Positions 30,815 through 57,512 of a stretch of 64,000 nucleotides of DNA are shown piece after piece; positions within the stretch are counted from its first letter, which is position 1, and each line of letters begins with the position of its first letter. The stretch lies in the NCBI RefSeq assembly GCF_034531395.1, contig NZ_JARVCO010000004.1, positions 62,001 through 126,000 of the forward strand, in the 5' to 3' direction. The notes below the pieces were generated by a model. It did not search any database and was not told where the DNA came from. It saw nothing but the letters and a program-made list of their open reading frames with translations. Both the position numbers and the translations under genes were made by a program. This stretch comes from Pontiella agarivorans. Lineage in GTDB: Bacteria; Verrucomicrobiota; Kiritimatiellia; Kiritimatiellales; Pontiellaceae.

Positions 30815-30834
30815 GTTTTCTCCTTTTTACAAAT

Positions 30835-30889: not shown

Positions 30890-30906
30890 ACAAACAGAAG
30901 TATTGA

Positions 30907-33900
30907 TTACTTAGTGACTTCCAGTCGGATGAATACATTGTCGGCACTTTGGCCGATATTGCTGATGTATTCTTCGAGCACACCGTTATTGGATACCGGA
31001 ACGGTTTCATGTACGCCCCAGAGACTTTCCACGGCGAGATTGACGTTGGTCATCACGTTCACCGTCAGCGTGTCATCCCCGATCACAGAGAAGGTATAGT
31101 CCGAGCCATCGTAGGTCGGAATGACCCCGATATCACCGGCACCCGTTCCCGGCATCGGATCCCCGCCGAAGGCATACTCGCCCAGGTTGTTCATCCCGTC
31201 GCCATCAAGATCGGCATCGGCATCACCGTGCTCACCGACGAGTCCATAGGAAGCCACCCAGCTGGCATACCCGCTGACGACCGCTTGCGGTGCAATCAGT
31301 TCGAGGCTCATAACTTCAATCCCGGTAAGGCCGGAACCAAATCCCCCGGTTTCGAAGTACGGGTAGGCCGCGCCGTTTTCCAGTGCACTGTAGAAGATTT
31401 CACTCACGCCGCTTTCCGGAGTGCTATAAGCACCTCCGACTCCCGAAGTCAGGTTCGTGAGTGCTACACTGAATACAGTGGAAGCGGCGCTGTCACCCAT
31501 CGTCAGGTTATAACGGATTTCCCACTCATCGCCGTCCGTCAATGCAGTCCAGCCCGTTTGCGGACCGTTCCAGCCATCGCCGTAAACACGCAATGTATTT
31601 GCATTATTCTGCGCCTGCAATGTCGCCATGGCTCTGTTTTCACGGGTGGCACTTCCATCATAACCGACATCCGTTCCATCCGTCTTGGTGGTTAGACCAA
31701 TACGTGCGAGATATACAAATCCCGCCGGAACATGTGTTCCCAGAACTTTATATCGGACAGCAAACTCAATGGAATCGCCAACCGGCAGCGGAATGTCCTT
31801 CAGCAAGGTCATATTAATGTTATTGTTTGTGCAGGTAACCGTTCCTCCGGAAGCCGTATCCACCAACCAGCTTCCTCCGGCCACCCAGGAATTCTGGCCG
31901 TTGATCGCACCGTTGACATAATTTTCACCGGCGATGAATTCGATCTCGTTGGTGACCGTTACATAGTCCGGCGGCACAACAACAACGCCCGGAACAGAAC
32001 GCAGCCGGATGTTGTCGATGAAGTAGTTCGGTCCTGAAACCGGATCCGTTCCGTTGTCATCATTAATCAGAAGGGCTTCCACTGCGGTCAACGCCTCTGC
32101 ATCAGAATCAAATGTACCGGTCCAGGTGATGGTATTCCATTCATCCGGAACCAGCGTGCTGATGGCCTTCGAACCCCCGGCAACCCCCGCTACGCTGTAG
32201 GAGATGGTATCATCTGCAACATTGGCATCAGCCAGCTGGATAGAGGACACATAGATATCGAATGTCAGCGCCCAGTCCTGTCCCGCATAGAGTGCCCAGT
32301 AACGGTTTGACACACCATAGGAAGAGATGTCACCGCCGGTCAGATCAGCGGATTTGAACATGCCGATTTCTCCCTGTTCCGTGGCAAACGGATCTGAAAT
32401 CGAAGCCAGCATCATTCCGCCGTCTTCCGGAGCAACATCGACCCATAGATCGTCCGCGTCGTCGACTTCGGCCGGCGCAACAGCTTCAATTTTGAAGTTA
32501 CGCGCATAATAGTTCGGGCCTGAAGCCGGATGTGTATCCTGGTGGTTATTGATCAAGCGTATGTATGAATTCGTCAGAGCAGAAGGCTCATTCGTAAACA
32601 CACTGCTATGCGTAACAGTTACCCATTCATCAGCAATCATTTGATCTCCGACGGAGGTATAACCGGAACTTGCTCCGTCAATCTGGAAGAACAGACCGTC
32701 ATCTGTGACATTGGTATCTCCAGCCTGAGCTGAAGCAACATACATTTCAAAACTGAAAGTATAGGTTTGTCCTGCATAGGCAGACCAATCGTTGTTATAG
32801 CTTCCGTAATTTACATACCGGCCGAGGCCGTCGGAAGCAAACTCACCGATACCGGTTCCAAACGCGTTTGTAACCAGTGTGAATGCCATCGCACCACCCT
32901 CAGGATTCGGATCATTCCACAGCGTATCCATCGGCAATCCCGGAACAGCCTGAGTTTCAAATTTAAAGTTATCCATGTAAAGATTAGCCCCGGCCGGATG
33001 GGTGGCTTTGTCATTGAACAGGACTTGAGCACTGGCAGAGGTCAGATCATTCGGATTGATCGGCATGATGCCGAACCAAGTGACGGTATTCCACGAATCC
33101 GCCACGAAATTGAGATTACTGACTTCTGAATATCCCCCGGCATTTCCAGCAACACTGTAGTACATCGTGTCATCCAGAACCGCTGGATCCGCCAGCTGCG
33201 CCGAGGTAATGTAAATATCAACAGACAGCTGCCATTCAACGCCGGCATACTGCTCCCAGTTGTCAGAACCGGAATTATAATTCCCCCACTGACCGGTATG
33301 CGTGGCCGAATTGTACTCCCCGATATCACCATGACCGGTATCACTGCCGGTAACTGCAGTTTCTGTGGTCGCGCCCAGCATCATATTTCCGTTAACCGGC
33401 GCCTGGTCATCCCACAGCACCGCATCGTATACCGGGATGTTGCAGACCAGACTCAGATTATCCAATGTATAATTGGATCCTGCATCGTGTGTATCCTTGT
33501 CATTATTCACAAATGCAAAAGTCGCATTCGCAAGCGAAGCCGAGGCGGCCGGAAACGTCCCCTTCCAGATCACTGTGTTCCAGGCATCGGCCGTCCACCA
33601 GGAGGCATTGGCCAGCGTCAGATTTCCGCCGGAAGCAAGCACATCGGTTCCATCCAGCAGCTGCCAGGATATCGTGTCATCGTTAACGTTCGTGTTCGCA
33701 AGCTGCGCGGCTGTAATGTAAATATCAGCTGTAAACGTCCAATCACGGCCGGCATAGGTCGACCAGTCATTTCCTTCGGTCGCATAGGTCGACACATTGG
33801 TCCCTGACGTCGTTGCACTGGAATCAAATACGCCGGCCGATAAATTCATCGTGCCGCCGGCGGGATTCTGATCATCCCATAGGACGGTATCCTGCGCCTG

Positions 33901-33954
33901 GACAACAGCAGCCATCGATGCCGCCCCCAAGGCTGTGAACAGTAGTTTTCTCAT
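30907..33954 (-). CDS. secreted non-catalytic protein with four tandem beta-sandwich repeats
   Basis: 1015 residues. Signal peptide 1-20. Four repeats of about 150 residues at 24-171, 179-333, 344-489 and 503-652. Each begins LW(D/N/V)D...P..GG.M and ends with a HPAGxNYxxDNF-like strand, a CBM-like pattern. A diverged copy of the DGQQ-W module follows (about 669-890, INGQNSWVAGGSW...). A calcium-binding segment, DADADLDGDGMNN, and a closing beta domain complete the protein. No catalytic residues are evident. I infer a galactan-binding surface or scaffold protein, which could take the place of SusD/SGBP proteins in a phylum without them. GGAG precedes the ATG. It lies directly downstream of the first two-component pair. 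Confidence 0.85.
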   Translation of the reverse strand: MRKLLFTALGAASMAAVVQAQDTVLWDDQNPAGGTMNLSAGVFDSSATTSGTNVSTYATEGNDWSTYAGRDWTFTADIYITAAQLANTNVNDDTISWQLLDGTDVLASGGNLTLANASWWTADAWNTVIWKGTFPAASASLANATFAFVNNDKDTHDAGSNYTLDNLSLVCNIPVYDAVLWDDQAPVNGNMMLGATTETAVTGSDTGHGDIGEYNSATHTGQWGNYNSGSDNWEQYAGVEWQLSVDIYITSAQLADPAVLDDTMYYSVAGNAGGYSEVSNLNFVADSWNTVTWFGIMPINPNDLTSASAQVLFNDKATHPAGANLYMDNFKFETQAVPGLPMDTLWNDPNPEGGAMAFTLVTNAFGTGIGEFASDGLGRYVNYGSYNNDWSAYAGQTYTFSFEMYVASAQAGDTNVTDDGLFFQIDGASSGYTSVGDQMIADEWVTVTHSSVFTNEPSALTNSYIRLINNHQDTHPASGPNYYARNFKIEAVAPAEVDDADDLWVDVAPEDGGMMLASISDPFATEQGEIGMFKSADLTGGDISSYGVSNRYWALYAGQDWALTFDIYVSSIQLADANVADDTISYSVAGVAGGSKAISTLVPDEWNTITWTGTFDSDAEALTAVEALLINDDNGTDPVSGPNYFIDNIRLRSVPGVVVVPPDYVTVTNEIEFIAGENYVNGAINGQNSWVAGGSWLVDTASGGTVTCTNNNINMTLLKDIPLPVGDSIEFAVRYKVLGTHVPAGFVYLARIGLTTKTDGTDVGYDGSATRENRAMATLQAQNNANTLRVYGDGWNGPQTGWTALTDGDEWEIRYNLTMGDSAASTVFSVALTNLTSGVGGAYSTPESGVSEIFYSALENGAAYPYFETGGFGSGLTGIEVMSLELIAPQAVVSGYASWVASYGLVGEHGDADADLDGDGMNNLGEYAFGGDPMPGTGAGDIGVIPTYDGSDYTFSVIGDDTLTVNVMTNVNLAVESLWGVHETVPVSNNGVLEEYISNIGQSADNVFIRLEVTK

Positions 33955-34249
33955 CTTTTAATCTCCTCGTTTCACCGCCGTGCAGTCCTTTCCATGGCGC
34001 GGACCTCCTAACACGACCGTTAACATGAGTTGTTCTAACAAGGAGAGAAAATGCGAACTATGGGCCAAAAGACCCATACTTTTTACCCGCCATCATCCCG
34101 AACAGAATAAAAACCACAAACCATTAATTACAAGACTGTTGCGACGCAACCAAACCTTGTGATTTATCCCGGGAAAAACCGGATGAAAAGCGAACCGGAA
34201 ACGGCCGCAAAAATACCTTCACGGATGGCGGCCGTTCCGCAGAACCGCC
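33955..34249. other. 295-base non-coding region between the first response regulator and the repeat protein
   Basis: It contains TATGGG-N8-CCCATA (34059-34078) followed by CTTTTTAC on the plus strand, and GTTAACGG on the minus strand (34017-34024, CCGTTAAC on plus), the same octamer as the XylR-upstream repeat. A plus-strand AAGGAG...ATG frame of 19 codons (34051-34110) is present but unsupported. It is likely the promoter region of the 1015-residue protein gene. Confidence 0.45.
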
Positions 34250-34885
34250 CTACTCTTCGTCCAGTTTCAAAATGCCTTTTTTATAAGCAATTACCACCGC
34301 CTGCGTGCGGTCGGCCGCCCCGAGTTTTTCCCGGATGTTGGTGATGTGGTGCTTCACGGTCGACATCGAAATATTGAAATACTCCACGAGCTCTTTATTG
34401 CTGGTGCCCTGACCGAGCATCTGCAGCAGTTCCAGTTCCCGCGGGGTCAGCTCTTCCTGCTGTTTGCGCGCAGAAATTTTCCGGGCAATTGACGCCGGAA
34501 AAAAAGAATACCCCTCCGCCACCTCGTGAATGGCTTCCATCACATCCTCAACCGCGCTGGCCGATTTGGTCAGATAGCCCTTAACACCGGCCTGTACCGC
34601 TTTCCAAACCTCTTCCTCCGACTCAAAGACGGAGAAAAGAATCACCTTGGCATCGGGATCAATCGCCATAATTTTCTCCGTACACGCCACCCCGTCCTCG
34701 CCCGGCATGCGGTAATCCATGGTCACAATATCGGGTTTCATCTTCTGATAAAGTTCCACCGCCTCTTCGCTGCTCGACGCATCACCGGCGGCCTCCAGCC
34801 CCGGCTCCATATCAATCGCTCCCAGCAGCCCGAAACGCAACAACTGATTATCATCCACCACCATAACCCTTATGTTTTCACTCAT
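34250..34885 (-). CDS. NarL/LuxR-family response regulator (pair 1)
   Basis: 211 residues from the ATG at 34885, which overlaps the kinase stop as ATGA and has GGAG upstream. The receiver domain (about 1-120) has acidic residues in VVDDNQ, the phosphorylated Asp in [12 protein letters not shown], and the conserved Lys in LTKSAS. The LuxR-type helix-turn-helix is at the end: [43 protein letters not shown]. It is coupled in translation to the kinase. By position it should regulate the repeat protein, GH86 genes or itself. Family assignment certain; targets inferred. Confidence 0.95.
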
Positions 34886-37083
34886 GCCTGCTCCAGCTCC
34901 CATTCTTTTAGCGAGGCCAGTTTCACTGTAACTGTGGTCCCCTTGTCTATCTCGCTTTCAATCGTAAGTTCACCCTTAATCCGGTTGATTCGTTCATGCA
35001 TCCCCCGCACGCCGAAATGACCGGCCGGCGGTAACTGCTCGGGATCAAATCCTTTGCCGTTGTTATATATTGTCATAGAGAGAGACGACGCCCAATAGGT
35101 TAATTCAACACGGATTTCTGTTGGATTCCCATGACGCACCGCATTGGTGACCGCTTCACGCGCCACCATCAGCAGATTCCGGTCGGCGATCTGCTTCAGC
35201 CGTTTCGGCATACCCGACACCCGGATATCGAGCTCGGCCAGCCCTTCATCGGCCAGCGGTTGCAGCGCCTGCCTGAGCGCCGCCGGCAAATCCATTTTTT
35301 CCAGCAGGCCGCCGCGCAGATCGATAATGGAAGTCCGCGATTCATCCCCGCAATAAGCCAGCATCTCCTGTGCTGCAGCAAACTCATGCACATTCCGCCC
35401 CATATCCGCATCAAAACGCTCCGCCAGATTTTCCAGCGGCTGGAACGCATCGGCCATTTTCCAGAGTTCGGAGGAAAATGTTTCTGTATTGTGCTTCAGG
35501 AGACGACGGGAGCCCTGCAACTGAATCGCCGTACCGGCCAGCCCCTGCTCCAGATTATCGTGCAGCTCGCGTGCAATTCGCTGTCGCTCATCCAGCACCG
35601 CTTCCCGCTCCACCTTATCACTGATAATTCCGGTCTGGCGCTCAACGGTCTTGCGTAACAACAGGGTCCAGGCCACAAAAAGCAACAGAATGGTAAAGAT
35701 AATTCCCACCGCCCAGAGCAAGCGTTTCACCGTCCACCACGGGGCCGGCTTAATAACAGTAATGTCATCCACACCCCGCAGTTGAAGCCAGAGTCCATCA
35801 GCATAAAGCCGCCAACGCATATCTTCATTATGCATCAGATTACAGATCCCCGTAAGCTCCAGAACCGCACCGGGCTTCAGTTCCTCCGGCCCTTCCACCC
35901 CGATCGGAAGCCGCGCCTCAAAGGAGTTATCCCCGGAACGGCACAGCAGACTCACCTGTACCGCATTTCCACTTTTTTCAGCGGGGGCGGCAAAGGATTT
36001 CCCCACCTCCAAAAGCTGAGCCTGCATCCGAATCAGTCCATAGTTCAGCCGCGAATCCATCAGGTCTTCCGGAAGATCCGTTCCAAACAACTCGTCCAAC
36101 TCCACATCCACCGGTTCAGGCTGCTTCCCGGTATCGCTCAAAACACGCACTTTCAGCGCGCGGAAGGCCGGACTGACCGGCTGCGGCCAGGCAAATCCCT
36201 CCACTTCAACACGCTGCCCCACTTTCAGGCCATCGCTGTTCATCACGGCCACACGAAGAGCGGATTCCGCACCCCGCAGATAAATATCATTTCCCGATGC
36301 ATGCGTAACCAAACCGCGCGTGCGTACCGGCTTCTGAGGATCCATCGTGACCTGCATCAGCTCCTCAATCGGCACATTGACGGCAGCATGATGAAGCCCC
36401 TCCTCCTCGATCAGCTCAAAGTCCATAATCGAATCAGCAATAAAAACCCGCCCGGTCATCTGCCGCTGTGCGTTATAAATGGTTCCAACGATGGCATTAA
36501 ACCGAACCCGGCGAAACATGCAGTCGGGCAGCTTTTTCCACACCGGCACCACAGCCGGCATATTCACACCCAGCTGGATCGAATCATTGATCTCCAAAAG
36601 CAGATAAAAGCGCCCATAAGGAGCCGCCACATCGGAATAGCCGATCACGCGCCCTTCCACCGAGACCCAATCACAATCGCTGGCAGGACGGTTGATTTCA
36701 TCCAGCTGGAACGGCCGGCCCCGCGGCGGCGGTTTCCAGCCGTCCACCTTCACATCAACCGCCTCAATCGCCGGATAAAATTCACCGGGATACGTCTTCC
36801 CTTCGATTTTAACCAAAGCACCGGTATGCAAACGCGGCAGTATGGTATGGTCACCGGGCCGCTGAACATACGCTCCCCCGTTTTCCGTAAGAATAAAAAA
36901 ATGGGCTCCGCCCGGCGACAGACAGACCAGCTGACCGGAAACCTCAACCGGAATACCCATCGCCGCTTCCTCAACCGACAACTGCCTCAAATCCATTACA
37001 TTGGTAATCACCGACTGTCCGAAAGACGGACACGCCAGCAGCAACAGCATACACACACCTGAAAAAAACCGCATCAATATCAT
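34882..37083 (-). CDS. NarL-type sensor histidine kinase with OB-fold-like periplasmic domains (pair 1)
   Basis: 733 residues. Signal peptide 1-22; large periplasmic region 23-450 built of repeated OB-fold-like units (for example [44 protein letters not shown]-type endings). One membrane helix lies at about 455-477. A HisKA_3 domain follows with the phosphorylated His508 in [16 protein letters not shown]. The HATPase domain has [12 protein letters not shown] and [20 protein letters not shown]. It has no PAS, Cache or HTCS-type beta-propeller domain. Paralogous to the 43778-46663 kinase but lacks that protein's N-terminal domain. Two palindromes lie just upstream of the start. Placement among GH86 genes suggests a galactan-derived signal. 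Confidence 0.92.
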
Positions 37084-37095
37084 CGGTTATCTATA

Positions 37096-37127
37096 TTCCC
37101 ATAGGGGAAAAATTCCAAGCATTGGAA
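37096..37127. promoter_or_regulatory. two adjacent palindromes upstream of histidine kinase 1
   Basis: TTCCC-ATAG-GGGAA (37096-37109) and the perfect 15-base palindrome TTCCAAGCATTGGAA (37113-37127) stand 12-44 bases before the kinase start. Their position suits operators or a leader hairpin. Confidence 0.5.
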
Positions 37128-37214
37128 CCAGTAAAGGAAAATCGTAATGTGTGTGCTCCGCTGGATTTCAAAGGACTGTACTCAACAGCAACAGAAGTTA
37201 ATCATGCTTTTCAG

Positions 37215-37259
37215 GCCCGACTGGAGAATCAGGCCGAAGGGTGAGGCCTTCGATCGGGC
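37215..37259. other. structured non-coding element
   Basis: GCCCGA (37215-37220) pairs with TCGGGC (37254-37259), enclosing either AGGCC/GGCCT or CGAAGG/CCTTCG. A second small hairpin, CCGA-N7-TCGG, follows at about 37296-37310. The surrounding 230 bases (37130-37367) carry no credible gene. This could be an RNA element or an mRNA leader of the kinase gene. Confidence 0.35.
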
Positions 37260-37339
37260 AGTTTTGCATTGCGGTGGCGCGCTCACCAACTGCACCGACC
37301 CGGCATCGGTCTACATGCTAAAATTGTTGATGTTCCAAA

Positions 37340-37357
37340 ACTGCACTTGAAAGCAGT
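37340..37357 (-). terminator. terminator of the 900-residue GH86 gene
   Basis: The minus strand reads ACTGC-TTTCAAGT-GCAGT followed by TTTGG, 11 bases past the stop codon. The stem is short (5 bp). Confidence 0.55.
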
Positions 37358-37367
37358 CCAGAACATA

Positions 37368-40070
37368 TTACGGCACAATCTCCACAGCGAGATTATCTAT
37401 CCGGTTGTTCCAGGTCAGCACCGCTCCGTCCGGATCGTAAGGCGCACTCCAGATGATCTCGTCAATCGCCAGATTCAGTTCTCCTGTCGTGGCTGTCGTA
37501 TAGGTTTGGAAATTTCCGTTCTCCACAGGATCAATCGACCACTGTTCCACACCGTCGAGCATACCGCGCACCAGCGGTTCGCCTTGCGGAACAGCATCTG
37601 TGGATGCACTGATGTCAACAGAGGTCACCACAAACCGCTGACTCACTCCACCGATATTTACGGTGAACGTACCATCGACCTCATCCTGGCTGTAGGATGC
37701 TTTAAATGCATTTCCGTTTTCATGCGCCGTGGCCCGCCCGCCGTGCACCAGTGAAAGGCCGTTATCGGTTTCAACATATCCATATCCGTCTGACCACCAG
37801 GTACCGTTAAAATCCGACCAGTCAAACAGCGCGGTTAACGCGCCGGTCGGCGCTTCGCTTCCCACCAAACGGAAAAATTCAACCGTATGGGCCATCGGAT
37901 TAGTCACCGCACCGCATCCCGTTTCATCAATGGGAAGTTCCGTAAGGTTTGTGCTCCAGCCGGCCGTAACCAGATTAGTTTTGGAGAGCAGGGAAAAAAA
38001 TCCGTTCTGCGGGCCGTTGGTGAATCCCAGAATAAAACGGTTCCCGACCACGGAAGCGTAATCGATAGAAATGGAACCCTCCCTTGCGGCATGAATATCG
38101 GAACTGAATGTAAACACACGAAAACTCAAACTGCTGATGTGTCCGCCTGTATCCGGATAGGTAATTGAAACGATGTTGCTGGATTGAATCAGCCCATACG
38201 GTACCGGAATGTTAAGCTGCCCCATAAAATCATTCCGCCCATCGCCTTCATGCCCCATAAAATCGGTCGGCACATCCAGAGCCGTTCCGTTAAACCGCAC
38301 AACCGGCTGTCTGGACAGCGCCTGATTCCGTCCGGCACCGAGGCGCAAAACCCCTTCTCCGCAAGCATCTTCACTGACGTCATTGATGCTGAAAACGTTA
38401 GCCTGGCCGGAAACAATCGGCAGGAAATTGGTTGAGGCATAATATTTTACCTCATCCGCGGTTTCATCCACCTGTATTGAATCCGAAAAAGCATATTCCA
38501 GCACCGCTGCCCCTTCAGCCCGAAGCTGCACCTGCCCGGGATTACCGATGTGGACATTTTCTTCGAGGACCGTTTCTTCACCGTCCCAATACAGGTTTTT
38601 CTCCACCAGTGTCTGCACCGCATTACCGTATTTTCCGAAGAGGCTCAGATCCGCCTGAACTGAATTTTCATTCAGATTGTTCAGGACGACAAACAGCTGA
38701 TTGCTGCTGACATAGGCATCCACCTGAATATCCGGATCGGCCGTCGCGATACGCACCCGCGTACCACGAACATTTTTCCACAGATCATAGAATTTAATAT
38801 AGTCGGTATAAACCCAGTCGCCGGTATAGCTCGGCGTGGCGTTGGTCTCACCCTCTTTCCGGAATAGTCGCCAGTTATGCGGATATCCATAATAGTCCCA
38901 ATTCCACTCCTCCTTCAACATGATGAAAGGAATGGCTTTATCGATAATATGCGGCCGATCGGCAAAGCTCATGAGCATGGAATTCATGGATTTGATCGCG
39001 GCCCAGTCCCGCTCCGGCGTCCACATGATCGGCCGCCAGTCATACGCTTCGAGCCGGCGATCGCGTCCGCCGAATTCCGACACGACAAACGGAAGCGGCT
39101 GCCCTTTTTTCAGATAGCTGTAGTGTTCGATCATATCGAACGTAGCCTCCAGATTACTGCCTTTTTTAATATGCGGCCCGTCGGAAGCATAGTCGTCGTA
39201 GATGTCATAGATATGAATGCTGAAGAAATCCATATTGGTGGCGCAAATATCAAGGAAGCGTTTGTAGCGTTCCGTCCACTCTTCAAAATCGTGGTTCGAC
39301 AGATCCGGGTGCGACGGGCAGAAACCACCGATTTTCACCTCCTGATTCAAAAGCCGGATCTGATCCGCTACCGTATTGTGATAATTAAACAGCTCTTCCC
39401 AGGTGGATGTTCCATACATGGGATCACTGCTGCTGTCGAACAGCGGATAATCCGGTTCATTCAGGATCTCCACATAGGCCGGGAGCGGGCGCCCCGCGTA
39501 CCCATTCGCGGCCGTGCCGTAAAAATGATTCAGAAAATTGCCCATATGATTTCCCGTTGCAGAACCGAAAGGCTCGGCAGCGGTATCGGCGGCAGAAAAA
39601 CTCCATCCCCCGCGCATCGTTTCCGACCCCGGCCAGAAAGGTGAAAACTGCGCACATACAATATCCAATGCCGCACGTGATTCATAAGCATGCCGCCAGG
39701 TCTGGCCGGCATAACTGTTTCGGGAAGCGGCTCCCTGTGCGGCGATTGAATAGGTGCTTCCCGAAACCTGCGACCAGCCGGGTTTTACAGGATCCTCTTC
39801 AATCTGGTTTTTGCTGTACCACCCGATATATCCGGTATCGCGCCCGAAATAGACATCACGCCCGTTAATGAAATCATGCATCACGGTTTCATCCATATCC
39901 CCCGTCGTGTGCGAAGCATGTACCGTGGAAAACTTTTCACGATCAAACGTGGAGATTCCGCCCACAGAATGTTTTACATTCACGTCAACATCCACCTGTA
40001 CTGCGGCCCGGGCCGCAGCAGCAGTTCCAAGCAACACGGATAACAGTGCTGTCTTCCTCAACAAAATCAT
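37368..40070 (-). CDS. GH86 beta-agarase/porphyranase with FDW-type C-terminal module
   Basis: Secreted enzyme of 900 residues. Signal peptide 1-23; GH86 barrel about 24-495 with the acid/base in VEILNEPD (Glu205) and the nucleophile in FVVSEFGG (Glu332). A beta-sandwich follows (about 500-665), then a TNGP...TNL module (about 680-745). Residues 747-900 are the FDW-x-xF-x-G-x-WW module found also in the 770-residue and 1678-residue proteins. GAAGAGG precedes the ATG. It follows the 966-residue GH86 by 84 bases, so the two may be co-transcribed. The catalytic domain is close to that paralogue, but the C-terminal module differs, which suggests shuffling of accessory domains. Confidence 0.92.
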   Translation of the reverse strand: MILLRKTALLSVLLGTAAAARAAVQVDVDVNVKHSVGGISTFDREKFSTVHASHTTGDMDETVMHDFINGRDVYFGRDTGYIGWYSKNQIEEDPVKPGWSQVSGSTYSIAAQGAASRNSYAGQTWRHAYESRAALDIVCAQFSPFWPGSETMRGGWSFSAADTAAEPFGSATGNHMGNFLNHFYGTAANGYAGRPLPAYVEILNEPDYPLFDSSSDPMYGTSTWEELFNYHNTVADQIRLLNQEVKIGGFCPSHPDLSNHDFEEWTERYKRFLDICATNMDFFSIHIYDIYDDYASDGPHIKKGSNLEATFDMIEHYSYLKKGQPLPFVVSEFGGRDRRLEAYDWRPIMWTPERDWAAIKSMNSMLMSFADRPHIIDKAIPFIMLKEEWNWDYYGYPHNWRLFRKEGETNATPSYTGDWVYTDYIKFYDLWKNVRGTRVRIATADPDIQVDAYVSSNQLFVVLNNLNENSVQADLSLFGKYGNAVQTLVEKNLYWDGEETVLEENVHIGNPGQVQLRAEGAAVLEYAFSDSIQVDETADEVKYYASTNFLPIVSGQANVFSINDVSEDACGEGVLRLGAGRNQALSRQPVVRFNGTALDVPTDFMGHEGDGRNDFMGQLNIPVPYGLIQSSNIVSITYPDTGGHISSLSFRVFTFSSDIHAAREGSISIDYASVVGNRFILGFTNGPQNGFFSLLSKTNLVTAGWSTNLTELPIDETGCGAVTNPMAHTVEFFRLVGSEAPTGALTALFDWSDFNGTWWSDGYGYVETDNGLSLVHGGRATAHENGNAFKASYSQDEVDGTFTVNIGGVSQRFVVTSVDISASTDAVPQGEPLVRGMLDGVEQWSIDPVENGNFQTYTTATTGELNLAIDEIIWSAPYDPDGAVLTWNNRIDNLAVEIVP

Positions 40071-40154
40071 TTATCCTCTTCCCGATTATAATTCCGAGCA
40101 GAGTTTCCACCATATGCCGGGAACCGCAAATCGGTCATATGTCCGACGAAACAA

Positions 40155-43055
40155 TCAAGGCGTTATTGTGCGCATGACCGAATGAACCCGCACACCATTC
40201 AGCCCCGAATTATTGGCTCCCGGATTAATCGTCTGGAAAAAACCATAGGCTCCGCCGCCGTTCAGGGCACTGAAAAGCGCCGCATCCACACCACTCACCG
40301 TTCCTGTTCCGGTATCGGTGCCATCGGTCAGATTCTGCAGCCGGACCGTATAGGCTGTGCCCGCCGCGTCGGCGCCCATCGTCAGGACATAATCAAACTG
40401 CAGCAGATCTCCGGCATTCAACGGTGCTCCGGTGATATTGGATGCCCCCGACACCGTCGAATAATTACTCAACAGACGATAGGTATTTTCATCTTTAATA
40501 ATCTGGATATTTGCATCGGCAGCAATCGCATTTCCGGCTCCGACCGATTCCCCGGCACGGCTCTCCTTCAGGCCGCCGAGAAAGGTGTACACAAAGTTGG
40601 TCGGTGTTGAATCGCTGCCGGTGAATTCAAAACTGATACGCAGGCTGTAACTTTCGCCGGCCGCCAGTTGCACAGACTCATCGAGCACCGCCGCCTGTCC
40701 GCCGGCCGTGGTTTCAATCCGGCCCGAACCGGCGGCATCGACCACACTCCAGCCGGAGTCTGCATTCCATAACTGCTGTCCATCCAGCGTGCCGTCCGTA
40801 TAATCCGGAGCGGTAAATTCAATACGTCCTGGAATGGGAACTTCAGGCGCATCGGTTTCCAGCAGCCGGAAAAACTCCTGCGGATAAGCCACCGGATTCG
40901 TAACCGATCCTGCACCACCGGAATCAATGGACAAACCGGCCTGATTGGTCACCCAGCTCCCATCAACCAGATTCGTATTGGAAAGCAGCGAGAACCAGCT
41001 TCCGGCCGGACCGTTAGAAAAACCGAGAACGATATCGGTACCCAGCATTTCGTAATAATCAATATCAATATAAGACGGTGGCGTCTGTCCATCATCGATG
41101 ACCCGCAGCGCAACAGTACTGATATGCCCGCCACGGTCGGGAAACACCACTTCAACCAGGTTGTTTTCCTGAAGCTGTGCATGGTCCACCGGCACATGAA
41201 GCATTCCGAAATACTGAGATCGGTCATCCTCTTCGAATCCCATCAGATCGGCCGGAACCGCAACCGAAACCCCGTTCACTTTAACCGTCGGTTGCTGCGA
41301 CAATCCGTACGCCCGGGCAAAACCGATGCGCAGTTCCGCACGGCCCGACAATCCCGGCACAACACCGTTGATGCGGAATGAATTGGTTAAACCGGCATCG
41401 ATGGCTTTCAGGTAGGTGTCGGCATAATATTTGGATTCCGAAAGCGTCTGTTCAATCTGTATCGGGGAAGCCAGGGTGTATTCCAGAATCACACATCCTT
41501 CGCGCCCCACCTGAACCTGAGCAATATCACCGACATGGTTGGTTTCGACCAGCGCAACAGAACCGACATCCCCGACACCGTCCCAGTAAAGGTTTTTCTC
41601 CAGCACGCTCTGAACAGTATTGCTGTATGCATCGAACAGCGAAAGTTCCACGTCGGAGATTTCATCCACCAGATTATTAATGATCAGATAAACCTTATCA
41701 TCATCCGCATAAGCATCCACCTGGATATCCGGGTCGTCCGAAGTCACATCAAGCCGCGCACCTTTCACATTCGCCCACTGATCATAAAATTTCACGAGAT
41801 CGGTATAAATCCAGTCCCCGGTATAACTCTCCGGCTCATTCTCCTGCCGCAGCAGGCGCGGTCCGTAGGGTTCACCGGTCGATGAATTCCGCCCCCACTC
41901 CGCTTTCACCACCGTGAACGGAATGGTCTTCAGCATCATGTGCGGACGATCCATGAAAGCCAGCATCATGGCATTGCAGGATTTCAGACGCAGCCAGTCA
42001 CGATAGGCATTCCAGCCCTGATTATTATAATCATGGGTCTGCGCACCGTATTCTGAAATCATATACGGACGACGAACCCCCAGCTGTTTTTCACTGTAAT
42101 AATCGATCATATCGAACATGGCTTCCATGTTCGCCCCTTTGCGATATTTCTGCAGCCCGCCTCCAATGCTTGGAAAATCGTAAAGATGCAGGCTCCAGAA
42201 ATCCATTTTTTCGCCGGCGATGTCGATGAACGATTTCCACTCGTCGTCCCATTCCTGAAAATTGTCTTCATCGTGATCCGGAAAGGTGGTCACAAAACCG
42301 CCGATCAGCGAGTTGGTATTGTGCGCTCGGATTCCATCCGCCACCCCATTATGAAACCGCCAGATATCATCCGCCGTTGCGGAGCCGTAATCCGGATCGG
42401 ATGACCAATCGAGGATATGCCAGTCGGGTTCATTGATAATTTCCACAAAAGCCGGCGATGGACGACCGTTTCCGTTTTCCCCGAAGTTATCGTAAAAATT
42501 ATCCAGATAAAGGCCCATAAAATCGCCGGTTGCAGAACCCAGCGGCTCCGTCGGGGAATCATTCGTCGAAATGGCCCAGCCGTTATACTCGGCTCCGTTG
42601 GGCCAGAATCCGCTGTACTGAGCACATAGAACATCCCCTGTTGCACGGGATTCATAGGCATGCCGGCTCGTCTCACCGTCGTAGGAATTGCGCGACTTCG
42701 TCCCCTCGCTCACCATGGTCGAAGCATCCACCCATCCCGGGTTGGCAGCATCTTCGTCGATGTATGCATTCCCCCGCCGCTGCCAGCTGATACCGCCGGT
42801 TTCACGCCCGAAATAAACATCCCGCCCATTCATGAAATCATCCAGCAGGTCCGGCACGGCATTCGCCGCCCCCTGCTGCCCGCCATCCCAGTCGCTTTCG
42901 GTATGACTGGAGTGAATAGTTATGAATTTTTCCCGCTCAAAGGTTGAAACTCCGCCCGCTGCACGACCGGTATTCAGATCAACCTCAACCGAGACTCCGG
43001 CTGCACAAAACGGCAGAAGCAGCCCCACGGAAATAGTCCCTATATACATCTTCAT
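40155..43055 (-). CDS. GH86 beta-agarase/porphyranase with DGQQ-type C-terminal module
   Basis: Secreted enzyme of 966 residues. Signal peptide 1-20; GH86 barrel with the acid/base in VEIINEPD (Glu209) and the nucleophile in YMISEYGAQ (Glu335). A beta-sandwich with QQPTVKVNG and GFEEDDRSQYFGML follows. The TNGP...TNL...QEFFR module is at about 665-735 and the DGQQLW module at 745-966. GAGGGACG gives the ribosome site. It lies downstream of the second two-component pair, 106 bases after the response regulator stop, with a TATCCAATGGCTGGAA element in that gap. It is a good candidate for direct control by the pair. Confidence 0.93.
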   Translation of the reverse strand: MKMYIGTISVGLLLPFCAAGVSVEVDLNTGRAAGGVSTFEREKFITIHSSHTESDWDGGQQGAANAVPDLLDDFMNGRDVYFGRETGGISWQRRGNAYIDEDAANPGWVDASTMVSEGTKSRNSYDGETSRHAYESRATGDVLCAQYSGFWPNGAEYNGWAISTNDSPTEPLGSATGDFMGLYLDNFYDNFGENGNGRPSPAFVEIINEPDWHILDWSSDPDYGSATADDIWRFHNGVADGIRAHNTNSLIGGFVTTFPDHDEDNFQEWDDEWKSFIDIAGEKMDFWSLHLYDFPSIGGGLQKYRKGANMEAMFDMIDYYSEKQLGVRRPYMISEYGAQTHDYNNQGWNAYRDWLRLKSCNAMMLAFMDRPHMMLKTIPFTVVKAEWGRNSSTGEPYGPRLLRQENEPESYTGDWIYTDLVKFYDQWANVKGARLDVTSDDPDIQVDAYADDDKVYLIINNLVDEISDVELSLFDAYSNTVQSVLEKNLYWDGVGDVGSVALVETNHVGDIAQVQVGREGCVILEYTLASPIQIEQTLSESKYYADTYLKAIDAGLTNSFRINGVVPGLSGRAELRIGFARAYGLSQQPTVKVNGVSVAVPADLMGFEEDDRSQYFGMLHVPVDHAQLQENNLVEVVFPDRGGHISTVALRVIDDGQTPPSYIDIDYYEMLGTDIVLGFSNGPAGSWFSLLSNTNLVDGSWVTNQAGLSIDSGGAGSVTNPVAYPQEFFRLLETDAPEVPIPGRIEFTAPDYTDGTLDGQQLWNADSGWSVVDAAGSGRIETTAGGQAAVLDESVQLAAGESYSLRISFEFTGSDSTPTNFVYTFLGGLKESRAGESVGAGNAIAADANIQIIKDENTYRLLSNYSTVSGASNITGAPLNAGDLLQFDYVLTMGADAAGTAYTVRLQNLTDGTDTGTGTVSGVDAALFSALNGGGAYGFFQTINPGANNSGLNGVRVHSVMRTITP

Positions 43056-43103
43056 CGTCCCTCTTCCTTTCGGTTTTCGCCCTGCGATTCTCCTCCACAG
43101 CGT

Positions 43104-43160
43104 GTTAACCTCCCATAGGTCGAAAGAACGACAAATCAGCTATTTATCCAATGGCTGGAA
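43104..43160. promoter_or_regulatory. upstream region of the 966-residue GH86 gene
   Basis: It contains TATCCAATGGCTGGAA (43145-43160), CCCATAGG (43112-43119) and GTTAAC (43104-43109), all within 50-105 bases of the start. CCCATAG also occurs at the palindrome before kinase 1 and, inverted, before the 1015-residue protein. Confidence 0.4.
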
Positions 43161-43161
43161 T

Positions 43162-43785
43162 CTACAGGTGCACAATTCCCCGTTTTACGGCAGCAATCGC
43201 CGCCTGGGTACGGTCCAGCACGCCGAGTTTTTCAAGCACATTGGAAACATGCACGCGCACCGTGCTGGCCGAAAGATCGAGTTCCCCCATGATCTCCTTG
43301 TTGCTGTTTCCGGCAACAATCAACTTGAGGACCTCCAGTTCCCGCGGAGTGAGCGAAGCCTGCCCTTTCCGCGCTTCCAGCTTGCGGGCAATCGCGGCCG
43401 GAAAATAGCTGCGCCCCTCCGCCGCCTCGCGAATGGCTTCAATGATGTGCTCATACGCATCAGCTTTGGAGAGATACCCCGCCACGCCGGTCTGCCAGGC
43501 GTTCCAGATATCTTCCTCTCCTTCATACGTGGAAAGAAACAGAATTTTGGCATCGGGAAACTGCGAAAGAATCCGCTTCGATGCTTCGAGGCCGTCGAGA
43601 TCGGGCATGCGGTAATCCATGGTCACCACATCCGGGTGACATTCGCTGTAGAGCCCCACCGCTTCTTCACCGGTGGCGGCCTCCGCCACGGTAGTCATAT
43701 CTCCTTCATCCGAGATAATATCCTTCAGCCCGACACGCAGCAGTCCGTTATCATCCACAATCATAACCGAAATTTTATCACTCAT
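43162..43785 (-). CDS. NarL/LuxR-family response regulator (pair 2)
   Basis: 207 residues from the ATG at 43785, overlapping the kinase gene by 8 bases. The receiver motifs are MIVDDNGLLR, the phospho-acceptor Asp in [12 protein letters not shown], and the conserved Lys in YLSKADA. The C-terminal LuxR helix-turn-helix is LTPRELEVLKLIVAGNSNKEIMGELDLSASTVRVHVSNVLEKL. It is similar throughout to regulator 1 but differs in the recognition helix (ASTVRVHVSN versus [10 protein letters not shown]), so overlapping yet distinct operators are likely. Probable targets are the adjacent GH86 genes. Confidence 0.95.
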   Translation of the reverse strand: MSDKISVMIVDDNGLLRVGLKDIISDEGDMTTVAEAATGEEAVGLYSECHPDVVTMDYRMPDLDGLEASKRILSQFPDAKILFLSTYEGEEDIWNAWQTGVAGYLSKADAYEHIIEAIREAAEGRSYFPAAIARKLEARKGQASLTPRELEVLKLIVAGNSNKEIMGELDLSASTVRVHVSNVLEKLGVLDRTQAAIAAVKRGIVHL

Positions 43786-46663
43786 ACCTGCTCTCCAAAT
43801 GCGATGCATCCGTCCGCACCGTCAACTCAACCCGGGTTCCTTTTCCCGGCTCGCTTTCCATCGTTAAATGACCGGAAATTCTTCGTGCACGCTCCTGCAT
43901 ACCCAGCACGCCGTACCGCCCGGTCTCGGCAATGGCTTCCGGATCGAAACCACAGCCATCATCTTCAACAACAGCGGTAAATGTGGCCTCGCCGTACTTC
44001 ATGGAAACCGAAATCCGCTGCGGACTGGCGTGATGCGCCGCATTCACGGCGGCCTCAGTAATGATCCGAACCAGCTGATGCTCTACAAAAAGCGAAAGAC
44101 GAACCACTTTTCCCACGAGCCGGAACTGCAGTTTCGGGGCATCCTCATCCAGCCTCGAGATCAGCGTCTGTTTCACCGCAGCAGGCAGATCCACCTTCTC
44201 CAGCATGCCGTCGCGTAAATCCTTGATCGATGCGCGCGATTCCTCCTGACAGACCCGCAGCGCATTGACCGCTTTTTCCACCACCGGCAGATCTTCCGGC
44301 GAACTTTTCCGGATTTTATTCAATAATCGTCCCAGCTGCAGCGACAGTGCGGTCAGCCCCTGCTCAAGTGTATCGTGCAGCTCCCGCGCAATACGCTGAC
44401 GTTCATTCAGCACGGACTCCCGTTTAATCTGTTTTCCGATGGTACTGGTCTGTGCGGCAACCACCTTCCGCAACGAAAACACCCAAACCACCATGAGAAA
44501 CAGAATGCCCGAAACAATGATAATTCCCCAAAGCAGCCGCTGGGCCGTCCACCATGGGGCCTTGCGGATAATTTCGATTCCGGCCTCCCCGGAAAGTTCA
44601 AGCCAGAGAGCCGCAGTCATATTTTCAATCCGCGGATTTTTTGTTTCCGACACATGGCCGATTCCCGTCAGTTTGACCAAACTGCCCGGACGCAGGCCCT
44701 CCGGAAGCGGAACATCGCCGGGAAATCGTGCTTCCACCAGCCGACCGCCGGCACGGCACCACAGCGTCTGCACCTCAGGCAGCTGATCTGTTCCCCCATC
44801 GCCCGGAAACAAGCGTTTCTCGGCATAAACAAACTCGGCATCCAGTGCAATCAGGTCATAGTTCCAGCCGGAATCGATCCGCGAATTTTCCAGCGAAACC
44901 GTAAACGGCCGTACAGTCCGGCCGTGTTCCAGACACTGGATGGATACCGCCTGAAAAGACGGGCTGACCGGCTTAAGTTCAACATAGCCGACCAGTTCAA
45001 CCAGATCACCTTTCTGAAAAGGCTGCTCTCTGAAAATCGAAACCCTGAGACTGCATCCGTTTCCCCGAAGATACAGAGCATCTTCCGAACCGCCTGTAAC
45101 CACCCCTTTTGTTTTCACGAGAGCAAAGGTCTCTTTGCCATACTGCATCAGCTCATCGATCGAATAAAAGCGGGGTACAGAACCCAGAAAATCAGAAACC
45201 AGGCTGAAGTCATCCACGGAGTTAATATACAGAACCCGTCCGGTCATCTGCTTCATTTGATTGGCCTTGGTGGCCAGCACACCGGAAAAAGAAACGGGGC
45301 GGAACATAAAGCGCTTCATCCGCTCAAAAGCCCCCTGCTCATAAGGCACAAATATTTCAATCTGTTCGTTGCCGAAGCCCCGGGATGTTTCCAGTTTTAT
45401 CAGATAGTGCCCATAGGACTTGATGAATTCCATCGATACCGGCCGCCCGGTCACCTGCACCCAGTCCACATCAAAATTGGTGGAACGCGTGAGTGTACGG
45501 CTCAGCCGCATCGCTTCCGGCAACGCCCGTTGTCCGGTAACTCTCAACGATGAGGCCAGCAGCACCGGCGAATAGCCGCCGGACTCCGTAGTCCCTCTAA
45601 GCTCAACCAGACTGCCGGCCCGGAGATCCGTATATTCCGCAGCCGGCCGGGCCAGCTCAACATACATTCCGGCCTGATCGTCGTGCACAAACAGGCGCGT
45701 CTGCCGAGGATGCAGATTGAGTACCTGTGCCTCGATAATCACGGGGACCTTTTTTGCCGCTTCTTCATTCGTAAGCCGCTTAATGTCGAAAATTCGTTTT
45801 ATAACCGCTTCCGGTTCTCCGCCATAAGCCGGTTTACGGGCAAGCTCGCCCAACCGGGCTTCCGAAATTGGCGGCGAACGGCGCACCTCCAACGACAGGT
45901 TACTGACCCGCACATAGGATCCCAACGTGGAAAATCCCCCGGTCTCATCAAACTCGGCCGGAAGCCGCAGGAAAAAATAGAGCGGTTCCGCTGCGCAGTT
46001 ATTGTGGTTCGCCTGATTAATCAGACCGACAGCGGCCTGCTCAATACCGTTTACGTGATTCGAAGTGATTATTGTGGAAGGTCCGAACCCCTCCTCCGTG
46101 CGCTGCACATAAAAGGTTACAGTCAGCGGTCCACCGATATAACGGTCGTCCGAAGGCACCGCACAATGCGGATAGGGCTCGGTCCAGGAATCGGAGCGCA
46201 TATTCCAGAATGAAAACCCCGCATACTGTTCCGGACCACTTCCCGACAGTACCGAAGCATAGGCTCCGAGATCGCCGTGTATCCAGGGGGATTCTCCCCC
46301 TGTACGCAACCCGAATGAAAACCACCAGTGGTTCAGATTATCCGGGGATGTGATTCCCTTCGCTTCGAACACCATCTTAAAAACCGCATAGTCGCCGACC
46401 GCCAGCTGCACCGCATTCGTATTAAACATGGTGCCGCCTAAATCGGCGTCGCGGTAATCGCTTCTAAACGGTTCTCCCTTGATCCGTTCGCCATCCGAAA
46501 CCCACACCGGAGCCGTATTCGTCAAATGGTCGGTTTCATGCCACTGCACATTCCAACCCGAAAGGTCGGAACCGGATGTTTCAAAAACGGGTTTCGAAGC
46601 TCCGGACTGTGAAGCCGTCAGAAATGCAACGGCGAAACATATATTTTTAAACCCGGATATCAT
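43778..46663 (-). CDS. sensor histidine kinase with extra N-terminal beta-sandwich domain (pair 2)
   Basis: 961 residues. Signal peptide about 1-22. Residues about 25-265 form a beta-sandwich-like domain absent from kinase 1 (SGWNVQWHETD, NTNAVQLAVGDYAVFKMVFEAKG, GFSTLGSYVRVSNLSLEV). OB-fold-like units follow to about 705, including LYLRGNGCSLRVS, which matches [13 protein letters not shown] of kinase 1. One membrane helix lies at about 710-732. HisKA_3 has His763 in [14 protein letters not shown], and the HATPase has EDDGCGFDPEAIAETGRYGVLGM. The N-terminal domain resembles the DGQQ module of the secreted enzymes, which suggests it binds the same glycan. This similarity is by eye only. Confidence 0.92.
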   Translation of the reverse strand: MISGFKNICFAVAFLTASQSGASKPVFETSGSDLSGWNVQWHETDHLTNTAPVWVSDGERIKGEPFRSDYRDADLGGTMFNTNAVQLAVGDYAVFKMVFEAKGITSPDNLNHWWFSFGLRTGGESPWIHGDLGAYASVLSGSGPEQYAGFSFWNMRSDSWTEPYPHCAVPSDDRYIGGPLTVTFYVQRTEEGFGPSTIITSNHVNGIEQAAVGLINQANHNNCAAEPLYFFLRLPAEFDETGGFSTLGSYVRVSNLSLEVRRSPPISEARLGELARKPAYGGEPEAVIKRIFDIKRLTNEEAAKKVPVIIEAQVLNLHPRQTRLFVHDDQAGMYVELARPAAEYTDLRAGSLVELRGTTESGGYSPVLLASSLRVTGQRALPEAMRLSRTLTRSTNFDVDWVQVTGRPVSMEFIKSYGHYLIKLETSRGFGNEQIEIFVPYEQGAFERMKRFMFRPVSFSGVLATKANQMKQMTGRVLYINSVDDFSLVSDFLGSVPRFYSIDELMQYGKETFALVKTKGVVTGGSEDALYLRGNGCSLRVSIFREQPFQKGDLVELVGYVELKPVSPSFQAVSIQCLEHGRTVRPFTVSLENSRIDSGWNYDLIALDAEFVYAEKRLFPGDGGTDQLPEVQTLWCRAGGRLVEARFPGDVPLPEGLRPGSLVKLTGIGHVSETKNPRIENMTAALWLELSGEAGIEIIRKAPWWTAQRLLWGIIIVSGILFLMVVWVFSLRKVVAAQTSTIGKQIKRESVLNERQRIARELHDTLEQGLTALSLQLGRLLNKIRKSSPEDLPVVEKAVNALRVCQEESRASIKDLRDGMLEKVDLPAAVKQTLISRLDEDAPKLQFRLVGKVVRLSLFVEHQLVRIITEAAVNAAHHASPQRISVSMKYGEATFTAVVEDDGCGFDPEAIAETGRYGVLGMQERARRISGHLTMESEPGKGTRVELTVRTDASHLESRYE

Positions 46664-46789: not shown

Positions 46790-49102
46790 TCACGGCATAT
46801 TGGTCGTAATCGTCGTTTTAAAGAACAGCCTGTCGCTGGTGCTCAGCTCCCGGGTGACGGCATCATACATAGCATCATGCGGCGTACGGTTGATTGAATC
46901 CCAGACGGCCGGGGTAAAGTCAATATTCACCAGATCCGGAGTCGTCAACAGATTATAGGAAATTCCACTGAGCGGATCCGTCAGCTCAACGATGGTGTAA
47001 TACACAACACCGTTGGAAACCGTCATTTCCGGAAGTACACCGACATCCGCCGGATTGGTGGGGTTCCCGGCCCATCCGTATTCATGAAGATTGAGCATTC
47101 CGTCCCCATCAAAGTCTTCATAGGCTCCGCTGTTCGGTTCACCGGCCATACCGTATTCTTCCAGAAAAGCATCAAACCCTTCCGGTTCCGGCGGGGGATT
47201 CAGCAGAATAACCGCCGCCAGATTATCTATTTCATACCCCGCCGGATTTGCGCCGCTGACAGCATCACCGTCACTCAGATCATCCGCAGTATAAATGCAG
47301 AAGTAGGTTGGATTATTGTAGGCCGCAGCATTCACAATGGCGATATCTTCAACACGGTACGACATCGCCGTTATTTTATTGGAAACCATCATGCTGCACA
47401 GCCAGGTATCAGCCACGGCCGTTTTCTTTGCGGTGTAGGAGACGGCCAGTTCATCGCTTTCGTGATCGGCCGTTCCGAGATCAATACCGAGATCAGACAG
47501 CGGAATACGCAGCACCGGCGGGGTGATCGCCATGTAATCATCATCGGCAGCAAAGGTGATCGCCACATCATTACTGTTCATGGTCTGGTACCAGGCAAAA
47601 CCCAGCTCTGTACCGGTCGCTCCGAAACGTTTAGCTGCCTGGTTACCCGTGGTTGAAAAAAACATATCAATGAACCGTCCGTCGTCCGAACCGTTCACAA
47701 ACATTTTCCAGTCGTAAGTAACCCGCAGGGTTTCGTTCGAAACCAGCACACGCGCCGGATCAGTGACATAAACACCGCGGTTAGCAAGACCGCCGACATT
47801 GGTATCCGATGGAATGCCGCCGAAACCGCCATCAGCCGGCAGGTCGGCCAGCCCCGGACGATGCTTGATGACCGTCGGACTCCCGGCAGTATCACCGCCG
47901 CTCCACCAATACTGATCGAAATTCAGCAAATCCATTCCATAAGTTGGAAGGTTCCAGCTGTACAGCGCATGCGGCGTCCAGAATGAACCCAGATTCCAGT
48001 TATATACCACTTCCAAAGCGGGCAATACGGTCCGGATATTCAGATTATCAATTTTATTATTAAAGGTCGCATTCGGATTCGAATGATACCCCACCTCCCA
48101 GACAATCTTTTCAATCGGAGCCGACAGGTCTCCCGAAGTTGCCGCCGTATACGTTACGAGTCCTGCATTGGTTACCGGCTCGATGACCCACTGCGCCAAA
48201 CCGGCAGCATAACCCGTCACCGTAGGATTCATGCTGCTCTCCGGCGGGTTGCCTTTATTGGCTTCGATATCAATGGATTCCACAACAAACCAGGACTTGC
48301 TTCCGTCCTTGTAGATTTCAAAAGTCCCCGGTTCCTGGTCGTTTGCCTCATAGGCCGCTTTCAAAGCTGTTCCATTTGCACCGCCCGGTCCATCACCGCC
48401 GCTGGACGCCGTTGCCCGGCCACCGACCTGCATGACAATGCCGTTATTCGTTTCACTGTAGCTGAAACTGGGAACCTCCCACCAGTTTCCGTCAAATTCC
48501 TCCCAGTCAAAAACCGCAGTGTCTTCCTGAAAAACCGGTTCATCCGCGGTCGTGATACTCAGGTTATCAATCTGGTTTTGATAGTTTGCCCCCGCATTGG
48601 TTGAAATGCCCGTATGCCAGACAATCTTACTGACCGGATTGGTTAAACTGCTCATACCGGCTGGTGTATAGGTGGTAAAACCAACCCCTTCTGCGGGAAC
48701 AATCGTCCAGACCACAGCGCCGTCTGCAGTTCCTTTAACCGTCGGGGTGTATTCCCCGTCGCCGAATGCACTGATATCAATGGAATCAATCACAAAATAG
48801 GTATCCACTCCGCTCTCCTGAAATGTGAATTCACCGGCAGAGCTATCCTGTGGATCATAATCCACTTTAAGGGCGGCTCCATTATCTCCGCCCGCACCGT
48901 CACCGCCGTCTACAGCCGTTGCCCGTCCGCTTGCATTCATCACTATTCCATTATTTGTTTCGCTGTAGCTGAAGCTGTTAATCTCCCACCACGCGCCATC
49001 AAATTCTTCCCAGTCAAACGTGGCGCTGAGGCCTGCGGCTCCAGTTTGTATTACCGCACAGGAAGCCAGCACTCCTCCCAGCAACAATGGTTTCATTTTC
49101 AT
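46790..49102 (-). CDS. secreted non-catalytic protein with two FDW modules and calcium-binding tail
   Basis: 770 residues from the ATG at 49102 (AAGGAG 8 bases upstream, signal peptide 1-23). Two copies of the FDWEEFDG-x-WWE module occupy about 27-185 and 196-357, each ending in a QIDNLSI/KIDNLNI strand. A 290-residue beta-sandwich follows (SWNLPTYGMDLLNFDQYWW...). Then comes a calcium-binding segment, EDFDGDGMLNLHEYGWAGNP, and a C-terminal beta domain. No catalytic motif is visible. The same module caps two GH86 enzymes here, so binding of agar or porphyran is a reasonable inference. It may be a surface glycan-binding protein. Confidence 0.85.
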   Translation of the reverse strand: MKMKPLLLGGVLASCAVIQTGAAGLSATFDWEEFDGAWWEINSFSYSETNNGIVMNASGRATAVDGGDGAGGDNGAALKVDYDPQDSSAGEFTFQESGVDTYFVIDSIDISAFGDGEYTPTVKGTADGAVVWTIVPAEGVGFTTYTPAGMSSLTNPVSKIVWHTGISTNAGANYQNQIDNLSITTADEPVFQEDTAVFDWEEFDGNWWEVPSFSYSETNNGIVMQVGGRATASSGGDGPGGANGTALKAAYEANDQEPGTFEIYKDGSKSWFVVESIDIEANKGNPPESSMNPTVTGYAAGLAQWVIEPVTNAGLVTYTAATSGDLSAPIEKIVWEVGYHSNPNATFNNKIDNLNIRTVLPALEVVYNWNLGSFWTPHALYSWNLPTYGMDLLNFDQYWWSGGDTAGSPTVIKHRPGLADLPADGGFGGIPSDTNVGGLANRGVYVTDPARVLVSNETLRVTYDWKMFVNGSDDGRFIDMFFSTTGNQAAKRFGATGTELGFAWYQTMNSNDVAITFAADDDYMAITPPVLRIPLSDLGIDLGTADHESDELAVSYTAKKTAVADTWLCSMMVSNKITAMSYRVEDIAIVNAAAYNNPTYFCIYTADDLSDGDAVSGANPAGYEIDNLAAVILLNPPPEPEGFDAFLEEYGMAGEPNSGAYEDFDGDGMLNLHEYGWAGNPTNPADVGVLPEMTVSNGVVYYTIVELTDPLSGISYNLLTTPDLVNIDFTPAVWDSINRTPHDAMYDAVTRELSTSDRLFFKTTITTNMP

Positions 49103-49274
49103 CGATCTCACTCCTTGGTTTGAATAACGGACCGTATTCACTGCGGGACAAATCCTGTTCCCACCTATTGATGCTGATACGTTAGGTCACTCTCCCGGCT
49201 TTCGGTATTGGATATCTATCCAAGGTTTGAAACCTCCCGGATCATCCCGCAGACTCTGCGGCCTGAATGCAAAA

Positions 49275-57420: not shown

Positions 57421-57461
57421 GCTCTCTCCTTTTATGATTGGAGAAACATGATTGCACCGAT

Positions 57462-57483
57462 TATCCATCCGTCCAGCTGGATA
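57462..57483. promoter_or_regulatory. TATCCA...TGGATA inverted repeat upstream of the giant GH86
   Basis: TATCCA (57462-57467) and TGGATA (57478-57483) with 10 bases between stand about 42-63 bases before the ATG. It resembles the TATCCA-containing elements before the 966-residue GH86 and the 770-residue protein. Confidence 0.4.
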
Positions 57484-57512
57484 GATGTCCGAGTATATGA
57501 ACAAGCCCCGGA

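Follow-up and report, generated by a model that had tools for sequence, protein, structure and literature searches.

What do two sensor kinases encoded among the enzymes of a polysaccharide locus detect, and which genes do they govern? The question is raised by a stretch of 64,000 nucleotides (hereafter the window) of the genome of Pontiella agarivorans NLcol2 (4,436,865 bp in 12 contigs), a member of the Kiritimatiellota. Pfam searches identified around the kinases four GH86-type genes with porphyranase domains, GH2, GH29 and a GH43-like gene, together with sulfatases, an AraC/PBP regulator and sugar-catabolic enzymes, and, as read from its sequence, the locus is a red-algal galactan (porphyran/agar) cluster. 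According to the available portion of an earlier study, agar, agarose and Porphyra all support growth of the strain, and kinases, regulators and TonB transporters occur in its GH/sulfatase neighbourhoods (PMC10880615); with that portion the present analysis has the genome and the general observation in common, and the sensor domain, the family, its fold and the paralogue count are added here. A preliminary description of this DNA had set it against the galactan loci of Bacteroidetes, a contrast that does not apply because the host belongs to the Kiritimatiellota, but the two NarL-type kinase/regulator pairs that it reported were both recovered complete and where it had placed them, as was their interleaving with GH86 genes. 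All genes of the window described below lie on the minus strand, along which the transcription order is HK B-RR B, two GH86 genes, HK A-RR A (34250-46663). The two GH86-type porphyranase/agarase genes that separate the pairs (porphyranase domains PF18206/PF18040), one downstream of RR B (40155..43055) and the other following it (37368..40070), are putative targets, as are a further GH86-type enzyme (24598..28047) and a large one with Ig-like and CBM35-like domains (52384..57504).

In HK A (34882..37083, 733 aa), Pfam matches and a structure model delineated, in order, a signal sequence, four tandem OB folds (approximately residues 45-116, 139-215, 253-317 and 350-445), a TM segment (450-480), HisKA_3 and HATPase_c; its partner RR A (34250..34903) consists of REC (phospho-Asp 63) and a GerE HTH. 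HK B (43778..46663, 961 aa), delineated by Pfam, modelling and homology to HK A, carries an L-type-lectin-like domain (~20-265), a four-OB array (~285-705) placed by that homology, a TM segment (706-738), HisKA_3 and HATPase_c, and is followed by RR B (43162..43809; phospho-Asp 65, GerE HTH). HisKA_3, HATPase_c, REC and GerE all exceeded the Pfam cut-off in both pairs, and the H-box, N-box, G2 and phospho-Asp were found in each; G1 of HK A (NNGKGFD) lies outside the strict pattern yet is of the expected type. Judged by these sequence features, both pairs are NarL-type systems, with a HisKA_3 and HATPase_c kinase and an adjoining REC-GerE regulator bearing the phospho-Asp, and phosphotransfer is predicted within each. 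The exported parts, previously given as periplasmic regions of 430 and 690 residues, indeed measure ~430 aa in HK A and ~685 aa in HK B, each followed by one TM. The gene overlap attributed to both pairs was likewise present, although its size depends on the start codon: 22 bp (A) and 32 bp (B) with the longest ORFs, and 4 bp (ATGA) in A and 8 bp in B with the likelier internal ATG starts.

AlphaFold modelling of the HK A exported region, with an alignment to its 10 paralogues as input, yielded four OB-type barrels (pLDDT 84.3, pTM 0.78). Foldseek matched this model to tandem-OB nucleic-acid binders (p204 HIN, CST, telomere proteins, RPA), and in VIA-align OB1 and OB3 reached Z scores of up to 12.5 over ~90 residues against AsnRS/AspRS and archaeal RPA OB domains, with OB4 at Z 11.2, while OB2, absent from the VIA-align rows, was assigned solely by the strand pattern of the model. 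As modelled, the exported region of HK A is four tandem OB folds; the OB-fold-like repeats proposed beforehand were therefore borne out for HK A and, by homology, for HK B, in which, however, ~250 aa of the exported region turned out to be a separate N-terminal domain. A fold held in common with nucleic-acid binders proves no function. No Pfam or NCBIfam model covers the tandem-OB exported region, and no significant PDB sequence match to it was found; a single distant family member passes the Pfam Rep_fac-A_3 cut-off, which provides an independent hint of the OB fold. Conserved positions in the array are mainly Gly and structural residues. Per-domain conservation was also tried as a means of locating the ligand-binding OB and was discarded, no OB domain being more conserved or more variable than the others. 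Literature searches on OB-fold sensor kinases returned nothing pertinent.

The ~250-aa N-terminal domain of HK B (45808..46606) was classed as probably lectin-like from its predicted structure. Close relatives of this domain were found only in G273, a genome of the same genus (91%), and L023 (49-50%). The alignment behind the model comprised three sequences (pLDDT 65, pTM 0.73). This moderate-confidence model aligned with L-type lectins at Z 14-15 (best 15.4, 203 residues aligned), and no Pfam match was obtained even at E 0.01. The model suggests that the domain likely adopts a lectin-like fold, and sugar binding by it is putative.

HK A and HK B are not isolated cases. The P. agarivorans genome encodes 20 HisKA_3 kinases, of which 11, these two included, carry the OB sensor, and its remaining sensor kinases gave no match to the OB profile. 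Each of the 11 OB kinases has a sulfatase within 20 kb (genome coverage 41%; binomial P = 6e-5), and 5/11 have a GH86 gene within 10 kb (coverage 5.1%; P = 1e-4); at 5 kb from a sulfatase the enrichment was gone (3/11, P = 0.37), which indicates that the kinases are linked to the clusters rather than to a neighbouring sulfatase. Because positions were treated as independent and three distances were examined, this test is supportive, not exact. Within P. agarivorans, OB kinases are linked to carbohydrate genes above chance. In another Pontiella kinase (L112), PA14 is fused to the array. Six more NarL-type kinases of this genome possess a second, unrelated exported sensor family without a Pfam model, discoidin-like by eye (L005 9504-11489, L006 9481-11532, L012 9524-11515, L014 8498-10552, L015 7581-10532 and L016 7825-10506, the last with an added LamG domain). 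These kinases, too, lie mostly in sulfatase clusters.

How, then, did two members of this family come to share one locus? The preliminary description derived them from a duplication, and a recent tandem duplication, with redundant control of one galactan regulon, would fit their common architecture, their common locus and their identity (30.5% across the sensor, 40% across the kinase). In a quick tree of 66 relatives (SH-aLRT support only), the Kiritimatiellales members formed one clade, and HK A was sister to its orthologue in L017 (Pontiellaceae bacterium B12227; 64% identity), whereas HK B grouped with L023 and L022, with strong support; these two of 11 paralogues thus occupy separate subclades with their own orthologues elsewhere and are not mutual closest relatives. 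Moreover, L017 carries A but no B block at this locus. There the order is a 49335-like gene (window genes being named here by their start positions), HK A, RR A, a 30907-like gene, a PEP-CTERM gene and a GH86 gene 69% identical to 24598; the window differs in that 49335 and HK A are separated by HK B, RR B, 46790 and two GH86 genes. A tandem duplication was accordingly rejected as very improbable, and the tree points to A and B as old paralogues brought together. Since G273 keeps both the A and the B locus in synteny and L017 lacks the B block, B and its GH86 genes would, with this one outgroup, either have been gained by the A locus or have been lost from L017.

The neighbouring genes offer candidate partners as well as candidate targets. 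Directly downstream of RR A, 30907..33954 encodes an exported protein of 1015 aa in which four repeats are visible by eye and Pfam detects no domain. It has a counterpart at the same place in L017 (38%) and G273 (82%) and is paired with a PEP-CTERM-like protein (30080..30814). Several Kiritimatiellales loci show such an arrangement downstream of the regulator, a large exported repeat protein and then a PEP-CTERM(-like) protein of ~200-270 aa (window 30080-33954, L007 11449-15060, L013 11374-15621, L021 12936-17324, L017 12652-15987). Upstream of 30907, the candidate regulatory DNA GTTAGAACAACTCATGTTAAC (34019..34039, minus strand) is conserved in G273 and L017. The palindrome TTCCAANNNTTGGAA, found in the window at 6698, 8480 and 37113, immediately precedes HK A as well as the relatives of HK A in L017 and L021. 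It had looked promising, in three genomes, as an operator common to the HK A upstream regions, and was rejected for lack of specificity, because the genome contains 334 sites, inside and between genes, versus 1 for the reversed control pattern. Upstream of HK B is a 783-aa exported protein without a Pfam domain (46790..49141), and 49335..51245 encodes a TM-anchored protein, again with no Pfam domain, in which a Pro/Lys-rich, TonB-like linker was noticed by eye. Large proteins related to 46790 adjoin several OB kinases, and the 49335 type recurs upstream of OB-sensor kinases (window 49335-51245, L017 7489-9429, L011 10421-12301), its L017 homologue (67%) lying directly upstream of the HK A orthologue. 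This recurrence of both protein types would suit an OB array that binds no sugar itself and instead serves as a stalk or protein-docking platform, through which the kinase reads the state of some partner, such as the exported repeat proteins, the TM-anchored protein 49335 or, in HK B, the lectin cap; so would the wide variation in array length, from 4 to ~10 OB folds across the family, and a conservation pattern in which Gly and structural residues dominate and no domain stands out. We nevertheless consider a docking role unlikely, as the partner families were not seen beside more distant members, in which the array is kept.

Those more distant members came from across Verrucomicrobiota, from Planctomycetota and from a single acidobacterial bin, in a retrieved set biased to HisKA_3 members because the contig query included the kinase core. 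The family is present in 24/195 sampled genomes of the Verrucomicrobiota phylum; Chthoniobacter flavus has 9 copies, Verrucomicrobium sp. has 6, and Brevifollis, with 7 matched stretches, has ~6. HK-RR linkage is kept in 55 loci, with the regulator directly downstream in nearly all. Whole-genome searches, outside the biased set, revealed hybrids beyond the HisKA_3 group that combine HisKA with REC, in two cases also with PAS, and have ~8-10 tandem OB folds (L101 5024-9568, L102 7521-11870, L103 7578-11480). In Verrucomicrobiaceae and relatives, a conserved bPH_2 protein (bacterial-PH-domain) is encoded directly upstream of the OB-sensor kinase (L034, L043-L045, L050, L052-L055, L067, L069) and is often preceded by a 164-194-aa protein.

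Within three genes, the 47 non-Kiritimatiellales loci contained PSD1 (23 loci), DUF1501 (19) and TonB receptors (7), while sulfatase/GH seeds were near only 1/47, and no GH family ranked among the 25 commonest Pfam entries in a tally of 92 other non-Kiritimatiellales neighbours. PSD1 is rare in the phylum sample (0-3 per genome), which may not represent the genera concerned. The association with CAZyme loci anticipated in the preliminary description thus held in P. agarivorans, where the family is tied to CAZyme/sulfatase clusters, and failed in the wider family, whose kinases lie mainly outside CAZyme loci; given this scarcity of CAZyme neighbours outside Kiritimatiellales, the sensor is not specific to algal galactan. 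That most neighbours elsewhere in Verrucomicrobiota are PSD1/PSCyt-DUF1501 genes (cytochrome-type domains) or TonB receptors, and that OB folds often bind nucleic acids, with RPA, CST, HIN and AspRS-type OB domains as the top matches here, might instead indicate a non-polysaccharide signal (redox/heme state, envelope stress, nucleic acid or another anion), the CAZyme clusters of Pontiella being everywhere and hence incidental. We regard such a signal as rather improbable: a single stress signal would hardly account for 11 paralogues in one genome, distributed among different polysaccharide clusters, the lectin-like and PA14 fusions point to glycans, and the PSCyt genes may themselves be carbohydrate genes, since He et al. 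2017 noted that they often carry CBMs and lie near sulfatases, and suggested a carbohydrate role for them (PMC5615132). Our literature searches on DUF1501/DUF1553 with polysaccharides found nothing pertinent. Some distant members adjoin GH106, GH43/LamG or DUF7133-cytochrome genes.

Overall, each pair is probably a carbohydrate-responsive two-component system that senses galactan products and controls neighbouring genes. The domain order, the OB fold, the kinase and regulator residues, the HK-RR linkage, the sulfatase/GH86 enrichment and the synteny of A with its GH86 gene are taken directly from sequence or model. The carbohydrate reading draws on the HK-RR linkage, the enrichment and the L017/G273 synteny; on the lectin-like (B) and PA14 (L112) domains fused to the array; and on growth of the strain on agar, agarose and Porphyra and the GH106 or GH43/LamG genes beside distant members. 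Weighing against it are the absence of enrichment at 5 kb, the kinases with another sensor in sulfatase loci, the few adjoining CAZymes outside Kiritimatiellales, the nucleic-acid binders as best OB matches and the pLDDT and three-sequence alignment of the lectin-like model. We infer a sugar as the ligand, to be bound by one or another OB, and the genes that would be controlled. In the periplasm, the four-OB array, joined in HK B by the lectin-like cap, would detect red-algal galactan breakdown products or a protein that carries them. The single TM helix would relay the signal to the kinase core (HisKA_3/HATPase_c), the core would phosphorylate the co-transcribed NarL-type regulator, and the regulator would switch the GH86, sulfatase and exported repeat-protein genes nearby. 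HK A and HK B would then be two specialised members of an 11-copy family distributed across the polysaccharide clusters of the genome. For the family as a whole, the most likely reading is that of two-component systems which respond to carbohydrates, occur PVC-wide and have multiplied in Pontiella over its polysaccharide loci. We further propose, tentatively, that the tandem exported OB folds may constitute an unnamed PVC receptor class that binds oligosaccharides directly, with a polysaccharide-specific panel of ~11 sensors in Pontiella and variants elsewhere (arrays of ~8-10 OB folds, PAS/REC hybrids, lectin caps, PA14 insertions).

Substrate sensing in Kiritimatiellota/Verrucomicrobiota, which degrade sulfated algal polysaccharides, is not established in the literature searched, and in Pontiella this family, through pairs such as A and B, probably informs the cell of the kind of algal polysaccharide around it. 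Its 11 copies over different sulfatase/CAZyme clusters offer a direct route to pairing polysaccharides with regulators, and its PSD1/DUF1501 linkage elsewhere offers a handle on the unexplained PVC genes of those modules. The family would also be an example of the OB fold, familiar chiefly from nucleic-acid binding, serving as an exported sensor.

Compared with known systems, the tandem-OB sensor kinases are an undescribed family, without a Pfam or NCBIfam model. The lectin-like domain of HK B resembles, in its predicted fold, L-type (legume, ERGIC-53) lectins and ConA-like domains, and differs from them in having no Pfam match, within a model of pLDDT 65. With NarX/NarQ-NarL and LiaS-LiaR, pairs A and B have in common the kinase core, the REC-GerE regulator and adjacent overlapping genes; NarQ, LiaS, MctS and UhpB gave the best NCBIfam kinase-core matches, none of which reached the equivalog cut-off, and the NarX/NarQ-NarL and LiaS-LiaR models do not cover the four-OB exported region. 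The repeat fold predicted for the HK A array (best Z 12.5) also occurs in RPA, CST, HIN-200 and the anticodon domains of AspRS/AsnRS, but the arrays of A and B, unlike these, are exported and fused to a histidine kinase, and have no significant PDB sequence match. In the HTCS of Bacteroidetes polysaccharide loci, one polypeptide combines a propeller/Y_Y_Y sensor with AraC output, and this large periplasmic sensor is presumed to detect oligosaccharides. A large periplasmic sensor and the polysaccharide-locus setting are common to HTCS and to A and B, in which we found no Reg_prop/Y_Y_Y Pfam match at E ≤ 1 and no AraC domain. The suggestion of a distinct way of sensing algal polysaccharide needs narrowing, as the family is not specific to algal galactan; what stands is that the sensors of this red-algal galactan locus differ from HTCS hybrids, with separate kinase and regulator genes, an OB-array sensor and GerE output.
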